Part shown: positions 4,968 to 6,971 of the stretch, one piece after another | Numbering within the stretch: the first letter of the stretch is position 1 | Layout of the letters: each line of letters starts with the position of its first letter | Assembly: GCA_036500765.1 (NCBI GenBank) | Contig: DASYBM010000015.1 | Span: 62,001-126,000, forward strand | Length of the DNA: 64,000 bases | Direction of reading: 5' to 3' | DNA from: Candidatus Sulfotelmatobacter sp. | GTDB lineage: Bacteria > Acidobacteriota > Terriglobia > Terriglobales > Acidobacteriaceae | Notes under the pieces: generated by a model | Told to the model about the DNA's origin: nothing | What the model saw: the letters and a program-made list of their open reading frames with translations, nothing else | The model's database searches: none | Made by a program: the position numbers and the translations under genes

Positions 4968-5043
4968 CGTGGCGGCGGACGCATTCGTCCGTCCGCAACG
5001 AATGCACCATGCTTTTCCCCAGACGAATGCGTCCGGGGCTACG
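4968..5043. repeat. Dispersed palindromic repeat R1, copy 1
   Basis: Two inverted GGACGCATTCGTCC/GACGAATGCGTCC units flank a 30-base centre and the copy ends in GGGGCTACGTG. Other copies are at 6998-7090 and 12034-12064, with a fragment near 46856. Its right end supplies the TAG stop (CTA on this strand) of the sulfur-carrier gene. Confidence 0.75.
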
Positions 5044-5323
5044 TGATGGTGCCGCCTGCGATCGAGGGCACCAGCAAAACTTCGTCGTCTTCCTGAAACG
5101 CATATCCCGCACCGCCGAGAAAGCGTATGTCTTCTTCATTTACGTAAACATTCAGGAAGCGGCGAATCTGGCCCTGGTCGTCGCGCAGGTGGGGCTTCAG
5201 CTCGGGAAATTTTTCGTCGAGCACGGAAAACAAATCTCCAAGGTTCGACGCGACACAGGTAATCGACTTCAGGCCGTCGGTGTGGCGGCGTAGCGCCGTC
5301 GGAATTTGCACGGTGATCGGCAT
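5039..5323 (-). CDS. CysO/MoaD/ThiS-family sulfur carrier protein
   Basis: Ubiquitin-like sulfur carrier of 94 residues. MPITVQIPTALRRHTDG...LNVYVNEEDIRFLGG...DEVLLVPSIAGGTIT follows mycobacterial CysO closely as I remember it (PTxLRxHTxG, FVNxYVNxEDxRF, xxxPAVAGG). Such proteins are thiocarboxylated on a C-terminal Gly-Gly and donate sulfur to a PLP enzyme. Here the GlyGly is followed by Thr-Ile-Thr and the TAG stop, so either the tail is removed or the protein is not a classic donor. It lies 2 bases after the threonine-synthase-like gene, under the same SAM riboswitch. The start was chosen to avoid a long overlap; RsmJ-like or MoaD roles are less likely, as no molybdopterin genes are near. 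Confidence 0.85.
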   Translation of the reverse strand: MPITVQIPTALRRHTDGLKSITCVASNLGDLFSVLDEKFPELKPHLRDDQGQIRRFLNVYVNEEDIRFLGGAGYAFQEDDEVLLVPSIAGGTIT

Positions 5324-5325
5324 GT

Positions 5326-6648
5326 TTACGCTCCCACCGCTTCGGCAATCACTCCAGGAATGTCGGTCGTCTTCAGCGATCGCTGCAAGTAGTTCTCGAA
5401 CTCCGTCAGCTTCGGAGCAATCGCCCGCTCGGTCTCGTAAACGCCCGCAAAAACGTCGGTCGTCTTGAGCCCGTTGCCGGTGATGCAAAGAACGGTGGTC
5501 TCTTCCGGCAGGATGCGGTCCTGGCGATAGAGTTTGCCCGCGCAGCCGACCGTCACTCCTCCGGCAGTCTCGGTGAATATGCCTTCCGATTCCGCCAGCA
5601 GCTTGATCGAATCGATCACTTCCGGATCGCTGACATCTTCGCTCCATCCGCCGCTGCCTTTGATGGCTTTGATGGCGTAGTGTCCGTCGGCGGGATTGCC
5701 AATGGCGAGCGAGCGCGCAATGGTCGACGGTTTCTGGGGCTCGATCTCAGAGCTGCCGGTCTTGACCGCAGTCGAAATCGGAGAGCATCCCGTAGCTTGT
5801 GCGCCGAAGAATTTCACTTCCTTGTGCTCGACCAGTCCGAGCTTGACGAGTTCTTCAAACGCCTTCTTGATCTTGACGATCAACGACCCGCCGGCCATAG
5901 GGCAGACGACGTTATCGGGCAGGCGCCAGCCCAGTTGCTCGGCGATTTCGAAGCCGACAGTTTTCGATCCCTCGGCATAGTAAGGCCGCAAGTTAACATT
6001 GACGAAACCCCAGCGATGCTCGTCGGCGATCTGCGAGCACAGCCGGTTGACCTGATCGTAGTTGCCGGCGATGCGGACGACCTTGGCGCCGAAGACCTTC
6101 GTACCCAGAATTTTCGCGGGCTCAAGATCGGACGGGATGAAGATCCACGCCTTCAATCCTTCGCGCGCGGCGTGGGCAGCAACGGCGTTGGCCAGGTTTC
6201 CGGTCGATGAACACGAGACGGTGTCGAAGCCGAAAGCCTTCGCCTGCGAGAGCGCGACCGCGACCACGCGGTCTTTGAAACTTAAAGTCGGCAGACAGAC
6301 GGCGTCGTTCTTGATGTAGAGGTTCTTCGCGGCCGTCCCTCTCGCGGCCGTATCTGAAGATGACCTACTCAATTGCGCCGCCAGACGCGGAGCCTGAAGC
6401 AGCGGAGTGAAGCCGACCGGCAGCCGCGGTTCATATCCGTGCGGCAGAGGTAAAAGCTCGGAGTAGCGCCACATGTTCGGTGGCCGCTGGGCAATGCGCT
6501 CACGGTCAAAATGTCCGCGCAAGGCGTCGTAGTCGTAAGCCACTTCCAAGGGGGAGAAACAATCGTCGCAGATGGAGCGGGGCTGGTTCCCCCAGGTCCG
6601 TCCGCATTCGCGGCACCGCAGTTCGTAATGAAGATCGGCGTGAGACAT
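5326..6648 (-). CDS. thrC: Threonine synthase family PLP enzyme (SAM-riboswitch controlled)
   Basis: Fold-type II PLP enzyme, 440 residues from the ATG at 6648 (a TTG at 6672 is possible). It has an N-terminal zinc ribbon (Cys12, Cys15, Cys27, Cys30) and the PLP lysine in LSFKDRVVA (Lys125). The SSTGNLANAVAAHA phosphate loop and the AGGSLIVKIKKA region follow. Standard threonine synthases convert O-phosphohomoserine to threonine. Its position behind a SAM-I riboswitch and ahead of a CysO-like sulfur carrier points instead, or in addition, to sulfur amino acid synthesis, by analogy with the CysM-CysO pair. An ordinary ThrC fits the sequence; a homocysteine-forming role is a hypothesis. An Arg/Ser/Ala-rich stretch near residues 92-106 looks inserted. 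Confidence 0.88.
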   Translation of the reverse strand: MSHADLHYELRCRECGRTWGNQPRSICDDCFSPLEVAYDYDALRGHFDRERIAQRPPNMWRYSELLPLPHGYEPRLPVGFTPLLQAPRLAAQLSRSSSDTAARGTAAKNLYIKNDAVCLPTLSFKDRVVAVALSQAKAFGFDTVSCSSTGNLANAVAAHAAREGLKAWIFIPSDLEPAKILGTKVFGAKVVRIAGNYDQVNRLCSQIADEHRWGFVNVNLRPYYAEGSKTVGFEIAEQLGWRLPDNVVCPMAGGSLIVKIKKAFEELVKLGLVEHKEVKFFGAQATGCSPISTAVKTGSSEIEPQKPSTIARSLAIGNPADGHYAIKAIKGSGGWSEDVSDPEVIDSIKLLAESEGIFTETAGGVTVGCAGKLYRQDRILPEETTVLCITGNGLKTTDVFAGVYETERAIAPKLTEFENYLQRSLKTTDIPGVIAEAVGA

Positions 6649-6710
6649 GTTGCTACTCGCTTTCTGCTGCAAGCTGCGAATAGCTGGGTACGAGCCCGAA
6701 AAAGTGGCCT

Positions 6711-6752
6711 AAAAAGCAAAGGCCTCTTTTTCCGGGAAATAGGAAAAGAGGC
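6711..6752 (-). terminator. Intrinsic terminator of the SAM riboswitch
   Basis: On the minus strand GCCTCTTTTCC and GGAAAAAGAGGC form a stem with one bulged base, followed by CTTTGCTTTTT. It lies between the aptamer and the thrC-like start, the expected place for the OFF-state hairpin of a transcriptional S-box switch. Confidence 0.8.
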
Positions 6753-6779
6753 TATCGGAAAGCAAATACAGCGCGCTTG

Positions 6780-6901
6780 CCGAATCCCATGTTCCCTGTT
6801 TCCAGGAGAGAGTTGGCACCAGTCAGCCGGGATATATGATCCCGGTTCGGTTGCCGTGGCGTCATAGGGCTCGTCCCTCAGCCACTCTGCATGAAATTCA
6901 G
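6780..6901 (-). promoter_or_regulatory. SAM-I (S-box) riboswitch aptamer
   Basis: The minus strand reads CTGAATTTCATG (P1 5' arm), GCAGAGTGGC, then the S-box core TGAGGGACGAGCCCTATGA and ACGCCACGGCAACC. A P3 hairpin (CCGGGATCATATATCCCGG) and the conserved TGGTGCCAACTC follow, then the P4 hairpin CCTGGAAACAGG and the P1 3' arm CATGGGATTCGG. All hallmark S-box elements are present and P1 closes over 12 pairs including G-U pairs. It should bind S-adenosylmethionine and stop transcription of the thrC-like/cysO-like operon when SAM is high. Confidence 0.93.
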
Positions 6902-6942
6902 GTTCGCCCGACAGCAAGCTGAAGAGCGAACTTGTCTTGACA

Positions 6943-6971
6943 AGACTACAAAATGGTGCGTGGAGAGTCAA
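6943..6971 (-). promoter_or_regulatory. Promoter of the riboswitch operon
   Basis: TTGACT, a 17-base spacer and TAGTCT on the minus strand (bases 6966-6971 and 6943-6948) place the transcript start about 30-40 bases before the S-box P1 stem. The inverted repeat CTTGTC-TT-GACAAG (6931-6944) overlaps the start region and may be an operator or chance. Confidence 0.65.

Follow-up and report, generated by a model that had tools for sequence, protein, structure and literature searches.

How does a soil bacterium without an evident acyl-homoserine route make methionine, and why should a gene of the threonine synthase family stand behind a riboswitch for S-adenosylmethionine (SAM)? Both questions are raised by a locus in Candidatus Sulfotelmatobacter sp., a member of the Acidobacteriota. 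The window analyzed here, a stretch of 64 kb from contig DASYBM010000015.1, carries a SAM-I (S-box) riboswitch that is followed by a metM-like gene of the ThrC family and by a metO-like gene encoding a small sulfur carrier. From the sequence, we regard this unit as very probably a SAM-repressed metM-metO operon, the products of which would form homocysteine from O-phosphohomoserine and a carrier thiocarboxylate. Such an activity would explain how methionine can be made in soil Acidobacteria of this kind, which have no evident MetA and, in the case of this genome, no evident MetX; it also argues against the database name 'threonine synthase' for metM-like genes.

The riboswitch and its expression platform

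The usual S-box layout, in which an aptamer is followed by a terminator, means that transcription is off when SAM is present. In a covariance-model scan the aptamer of the window (Table 1) scored 67.3 bits, above the RF00162 gathering score of 44.4, spanned the entire model and was the sole match to this family at gathering score in the 64 kb. A scan of the genome for SAM riboswitches, in which 150 of 324 first-look candidates were scored, found none besides it. With P1 of the aptamer enforced, the leader folds at -67.9 kcal/mol and the complete terminator hairpin forms, with arms at 6752-6742 and 6733-6722 that are followed by CTTTGCTTTTT down to 6711 on the minus strand. In the free fold (-69.1 kcal/mol) the 3' part of the aptamer pairs with most of the 5' arm of the terminator and so provides the antiterminator. 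By this comparison of constrained and free folds, the expression platform and the ligand-bound aptamer are mutually exclusive in silico. A hairpin-plus-T test detected the terminator of the window and was positive at 41 of the 48 related riboswitch loci; mononucleotide shuffles gave 4.8 on average. A generic terminator scan listed no terminator in the window, including at 6711-6752.

An earlier, sequence-only reading of the window had described a complete S-box aptamer, a terminator, a promoter, and a ThrC-family gene with a sulfur carrier two bases on that ends in GlyGly-ThrIleThr. The aptamer and the two genes are borne out by their family models, and the folds together with the hairpin-plus-T test uphold the terminator, though the generic scan missed it. 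The promoter is not supported: its -10 box is poor and a consensus promoter scan did not report it.

Table 1. Coordinates and supporting evidence for the features of the window and of the related desulfurase loci
Feature	Position	Strand	Evidence and remarks
SAM-I (S-box) riboswitch aptamer, RF00162	6784-6897	-	67.3 bits, E 1.6e-13, model 1-108; alignment with 23 related aptamers
Intrinsic terminator, candidate expression platform competing with the antiterminator	6711-6752	-	Constrained and free folds; hairpin-plus-T test
metM-like gene, pyridoxal phosphate (PLP)-dependent ThrC-family enzyme, proposed homocysteine synthase, 440 amino acids	5326-6648	-	PF00291
metO-like gene, ThiS/MoaD-family sulfur carrier, 94 amino acids, C terminus AGG-TIT	5039-5323	-	PF02597; proposed thiocarboxylate donor
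Promoter of the sequence-only reading	6943-6971	-	TTGACT, 17 nucleotides, TAGTCT by eye; not supported
Palindromic repeat copies	4975-4992, 5019-5036, 7005-7022, 7065-7082, 12040-12057		In the window
Aptamer at loci L090, L096, L097, L098, L102, L103, L104, L105	~2001-2114 along the riboswitch strand		Desulfurase downstream

MetM forms a clade apart from threonine synthases

The N terminus of MetM contains a segment with four cysteines that by eye resembles a zinc ribbon. To place the protein, we built a tree of 32 sequences, comprising 26 MetMs (the window, 24 from a set of 80 named loci described below, and a homologue from Nonomuraea gerenzanensis), four ThrCs and two IlvAs. All 26 MetMs fall on one side of a branch with a support of 99/100, apart from the ThrCs and IlvAs, and those of the named loci come from the Acidobacteriota, Dormiibacterota, Actinomycetota, Myxococcota, Pseudomonadota, Kiritimatiellota and other phyla; branches among the ThrCs are long, which leaves the order within that group uncertain. 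MetM of the window shares 51.7% identity with the Nonomuraea protein, whose gene is closely preceded by a SAM-I aptamer (68.7 bits) and closely followed by a carrier gene ending in GG. A tblastn search of a plasmid collection returned Nonomuraea first (51.2%), with the other 24 matches listed being at most 34% identical. With this homologue as the actinobacterial proxy for the MetM of Streptomyces albulus, the sequence of the window protein is that of a member of the MetM clade.

A sequence signature also speaks for the proposed reading as MetM. Around the PLP lysine, 79 of 82 MetMs carry the motif [ST]LSFKDRV and Nonomuraea has HSFKDRV, whereas the solved threonine synthases 1uim, 2zsj, 6cgq and 2d1f read GSFKDRG. 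In addition, conservation reaches 95% or more across 39 MetMs at L152, N154, M251, A252, S255 and L256 (window numbering), six positions at which both ThrC paralogues of the same genome have other residues. The motif LSFKDRVV, a neighboring carrier gene and a SAM-I aptamer together offer a recognition signature for the route.

The carrier gene is closely coupled, with two bases between the stop codon of metM and the ATG of metO. The best solved relative of MetO is chain 3dwg_C, which we take to be CysO of Mycobacterium tuberculosis, aligned over residues 1-91. In a tally of 106 rows that includes duplicate genomes, the tail after GG has no residue in 10, one in 16 and two in 57. Tails of such variable length suggest a trimming step that does not depend on a fixed sequence.

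The arrangement is conserved in relatives

We searched 61 genomes, the one of the window included. The SAM search scored 51 first-look candidates per genome under stricter filters, so that its count of 46 genomes with a match may have missed some. MetM was found at E<=1e-80 in 49 of the 61, and among the matches listed the MetMs are at least 57% identical and the other ThrC-like proteins at most 38%. From 54 riboswitch loci listed (G000 being the window itself) 48 were fetched; five (G048, G024, G006, G023 and G031), which have at most 2.7 kb of contig downstream, were left out. By their coordinates four of these five lead into a MetM match, and in G048 MetM lies on another contig; the aptamer of G048 (L036) is at a contig end. 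In 39 of the 48 fetched loci the riboswitch leads into MetM, and in 37 of these 39 MetO follows within ~125 nucleotides. The other nine comprise eight with a cysteine desulfurase, which are discussed below, and L107 (28.7 bits, below the cut-off), in which nothing was recognized downstream. G054 is the only one of the 61 with a strong MetX (460 bits), and it has neither MetM (best match 126.8 bits) nor a SAM match. At L099 (G034) the metM frame is split in two, possibly by an assembly error, and the alignment of 39 MetM sequences excludes it. In five order-level relatives (L061, L062, L063, L067 and L109) a divergently oriented homologue of the canonical thrC closely precedes the SAM-metM-metO unit.

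A second set consists of named loci, the best 80 of 587 relatives, which is weighted to the Terriglobia and in part duplicates the 61 genomes. Most of these loci belong to the Acidobacteriota (Terriglobus, Edaphobacter, Granulicella, Ca. Sulfotelmatobacter) and the remainder to other phyla. In 66 of the 80, the distance from the end of an aptamer to metM downstream is below 500 nucleotides; across the 68 loci with an aptamer the median gap is 124 nucleotides. The carrier gene starts within 400 nucleotides downstream of metM in 64 loci and lies anywhere downstream in 70. On the same strand, the homoserine kinase gene thrB is present in 12 of the 80 and a MoeB-type activating enzyme (E1) in five. 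At L179 the order is SAM-I aptamer, metM, MoeB-type E1, a desulfurase-like gene, an Asd-like gene (by eye) and a metO ending in GG; the E1 is 33% identical to the MoeB-type protein of our genome, and the desulfurase-like protein 29% to the SAM-switched desulfurase described below. These partners are the ones expected for the supply of O-phosphohomoserine and the formation of a thiocarboxylate. In Desulfuromonadales and zetaproteobacterial loci (L184, L185 and L188) metM is found with CysK/CysM-like, MoeB-type and sulfite-reductase-like (by eye) genes; the carrier of L184 has an additional domain fused to it.

Methionine, threonine and sulfur genes in the same genome

The genome of the window is assembled in 17 contigs. 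At C4 there is a canonical thrC followed by thrB, and the third gene of the ThrC family, which scores 541.8 bits to PRK08197, is at C16; MetM is only 30-33% identical to these two paralogues, and the stretches fetched around them gave no Rfam match. A profile search of the genome for MetA (PF04204) had no match, and for MetX (TIGR01392) there was nothing beyond one match of 22.5 bits over 57 positions. Thus, acyl-homoserine activation by MetA or MetX was not detected in this genome. A MetH-like frame of 1204 amino acids with an S-methyltransferase domain is present.

Four proteins of the ThiS family were found, namely ThiS, a MoaD-MoaE fusion (by eye), a MoaD-like protein at C17 and MetO of the window. 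The MoaD-like gene at C17 adjoins a MoeB-rhodanese gene (L024:6557-8126), and a JAMM protease gene adjoins a CysM-like gene at C2 (L108:548-2025), so that the parts needed for carrier activation exist in this genome. The CysM-JAMM pair and the MoaD-like/MoeB-rhodanese pair lie on different contigs and may form a second thiocarboxylate system, for cysteine.

Relation to known systems

Protein thiocarboxylates donate sulfur in other pathways as well. In the CysO-CysM-Mec system of M. tuberculosis, which includes a JAMM protease, the carrier thiocarboxylate attacks a PLP-activated phospho-amino acid, and CysM uses O-phosphoserine to make cysteine. The closeness of MetO to 3dwg_C and the CysM-JAMM pair elsewhere in the genome are points of likeness, but MetM belongs to the ThrC family. 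We rejected membership in the CysO-CysM system on this ground and because the genes for the CysM-like and JAMM proteins are found on a different contig. The HcyS route of Wolinella succinogenes shares the protein thiocarboxylate and also leads to homocysteine, however through O-acetylhomoserine and a MetY-family enzyme, without a ThrC-family enzyme or O-phosphohomoserine. In Streptomyces, which is not known to have acyl-homoserine activation by MetA or MetX, metO is reportedly located downstream of metM, and MetM is said to convert O-phosphohomoserine with thiocarboxylated MetO.

The passages of PMC12172450 that bear on this system state that Hasebe et al. 2024 identified MetM as a homocysteine synthase in Streptomyces, that this ThrC-like enzyme acts on O-phosphohomoserine, that a SAM riboswitch lies upstream of S. 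albulus metM and that metO encodes a putative sulfur carrier. To the extent of these passages the window is alike in its ThrC-like candidate homocysteine synthase, the proposed substrate and the riboswitch before metM, and its adjacent carrier gene with a GlyGly end, conserved in relatives, corresponds to metO. It differs in belonging to an Acidobacteriota branch and in the short tail of MetO after GG. Its switch is of the terminator type, whereas that of Nonomuraea, our actinobacterial proxy, is more probably translational, because the aptamer ends very close to the likely start codon. In Streptomyces lividans, a table in PMC8079986 gives an RF00162 SAM riboswitch for SLIV_16930-16925, assigned to threonine biosynthesis, and places a cysteine desulfurase, assigned to thiamine metabolism, behind a SAM-IV riboswitch. 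By this table description, and not by sequence, the first entry resembles our locus as a SAM-I riboswitch before a two-gene unit; the assigned functions, threonine for the unit and thiamine metabolism for the desulfurase, are different. Among open-licence PubMed Central (PMC) papers, which form the scope of our literature work, the passages found discuss MetM only in PMC12172450. Those of PMC12452182 describe hom1-thrC-thrB in Bacillota, and the term sulfur carrier is absent from them.

Alternative explanations

MetM might be an ordinary threonine synthase that is repressed by SAM since threonine and methionine share O-phosphohomoserine, with the carrier as a passenger from molybdopterin or cysteine metabolism. 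In line with this, MetM scores 254.1 bits against the threonine synthase model TIGR00260, above the cut-off of 167.1. The same model passes the thrC beside thrB at C4 (261.6 bits) but fails the C16 paralogue (159.5 bits, under the cut-off) and therefore does not separate functions; against PRK08197, another threonine synthase model, MetM stays below the cut-off (271.9 against 303 bits) and is not canonical by that measure. Passages of PMC12172450 also report on a homologue from a cyanobacterium, with 51.6% identity to S. albulus MetM and a metO-like gene beside it: in vitro it had threonine synthase and deaminase activity, a peak that could not be assigned appeared near methionine, and the protein was judged not to act fully as MetM. 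However, threonine synthesis in our genome has its own thrC beside thrB and a third ThrC-family enzyme, MetM stands in a clade apart from ThrC, and a carrier gene adjoins it in 64 of the 80 named loci. ThiS, the MoaD-MoaE fusion and the other MoaD-like protein are available for other roles, which speaks against a mere passenger. In addition, repression by SAM would spare O-phosphohomoserine for methionine just when methionine is already plentiful. A plain SAM-controlled threonine synthase was therefore rejected on the separate thrC-thrB, the distinct clade and the carrier linkage, and we consider it very improbable.

In a second alternative, a cystathionine gamma-synthase that uses O-phosphohomoserine, together with a beta-lyase, could make homocysteine, leaving another product to MetM and MetO. 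The genome does hold two full-length PF01053 enzymes of Cys/Met metabolism (512 and 464 bits), one encoded ~3 kb from thrC-thrB, so that trans-sulfuration from O-phosphohomoserine could operate. Yet neither is above an NCBIfam cut-off among the 25 matches listed for each, the top model being a gamma-lyase/homocysteine desulfhydrase; one gene adjoins cysK, as in reverse trans-sulfuration; and the SAM switch of metM and the thrB and E1 partners in relatives would be left unexplained. This makes the trans-sulfuration pair extremely unlikely as the source of homocysteine. That MetM makes both threonine and homocysteine and usually draws on free sulfide instead of MetO finds a precedent in the more than one activity reported for a ThrC-like homologue in the passages of PMC12172450. 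The strong linkage of metM with the carrier gene and the carrier-activating E1 in five of 80 loci argue against free sulfide, and we judge this version unlikely.

Apart from the TIGR00260 score, the cyanobacterial activities and the PF01053 pair, several observations weigh against a SAM-repressed homocysteine operon. The aptamer was undetected in 12 of the 80 named loci, three of which have fewer than 300 bases before metM, and the carrier gene was not found in the locus in 10 of the 80. The class-level relatives G052, G055, G057, G058 and G060 have MetM and no SAM match. Weaker matches to the MetX family, at 75-153 bits, occur in 29 of the 61 genomes, the window's not among them, and three of these matches cover nearly the full length; the absence of MetX therefore does not extend to the whole group. 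With an assembly completeness of 99.3%, absences from the window's genome are not absolute. Our comparison with S. albulus MetM is indirect, through the Nonomuraea proxy, and our genome is without a SAM-switched desulfurase, the best matches being 47% identical.

Proposed function and mechanism

The sequence-only reading had suggested a new route in which O-phosphohomoserine and a protein thiocarboxylate give homocysteine. At the level of sequence and gene content, this chemistry draws support from the MetM clade, from the partner genes in relatives, from the separate thrC-thrB, and from the finding of neither MetA nor a convincing MetX. The neighborhoods of SAM riboswitch, thrC-like gene and carrier gene that it had proposed to look for in relatives were recovered (aptamer in 66 of 80, carrier in 64 of 80), as was a second, riboswitch-free thrC, at C4, to which the ThrC-family gene at C16 can be added. 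The absence of acyl-homoserine genes that it had proposed to check holds for this genome but is not general, as 29 genomes have weaker MetX-family matches. A complete trans-sulfuration or sulfhydrylation pathway in a genome without a second thrC, which it had named as fatal, is not what we see, as other thrC genes exist and the acyl-homoserine route was not found. The novelty is lost: passages of PMC12172450 already describe the MetM/MetO route and its SAM riboswitch for Streptomyces, and the window is accordingly seen as an Acidobacteriota member of a described pathway.

In operation, the leader would fold as antiterminator at low SAM and metM-metO would be transcribed; at high SAM, stabilization of P1 in the aptamer would free the terminator and transcription would stop. 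A JAMM-type protease may trim MetO to its GlyGly end. A MoeB-rhodanese (E1-like) enzyme could then adenylate and sulfurate MetO, with sulfur from a cysteine desulfurase, to yield the C-terminal thiocarboxylate. O-phosphohomoserine would be made by ThrB, and MetM would replace its phosphate by the thiocarboxylate sulfur. Hydrolysis would release homocysteine, which MetH would methylate to methionine, and threonine would be made by the other ThrC, encoded beside thrB.

A SAM-switched cysteine desulfurase in relatives

A second SAM-I riboswitch, found in eight congeneric genomes, lies ahead of a cysteine desulfurase gene (Table 1); at all eight loci the hairpin-plus-T test found a terminator. The L102 protein was named by family test, its best NCBIfam model being NifS with 442 bits, below the cut-off of 531; the remaining seven were assigned by eye on the strength of similar starts. 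MetM is also present in seven of the eight genomes, the exception being G019. The likely sulfur donor may thus be under SAM control as well. Given these eight genomes and the row of metM, E1, desulfurase-like gene and metO at L179, we regard it as a real possibility, if a little short of probable, that SAM controls the homocysteine synthase, its carrier and a dedicated carrier-loading desulfurase, and that Streptomyces uses SAM-IV instead. If so, sulfur loading would be a second feedback point of the homocysteine pathway. This may be the most interesting addition of our work, as a lead and not as a result, and we make no claim that the link between SAM and the desulfurase is unpublished. Together with the homoserine kinase and E1 partners, the SAM-controlled desulfurase makes the substrate and the sulfur source of the pathway directly testable. 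A regulatory parallel without a riboswitch is given in passages of PMC4239095, where the csd cysteine desulfurase is predicted to be under MetJ control in Vibrionales.

Other features of the window

Divergent from metM, a thiC-like gene (by eye) lies within 6891-8606 on the plus strand; across the window, no thiamine pyrophosphate riboswitch reached the gathering score of Rfam. The window also has 14 matches, with at most two mismatches, to a palindromic extragenic repeat around GCGGACGAATGCGTC, against 1.73 expected, and four of these palindromes lie on the two sides of the metM-metO unit.

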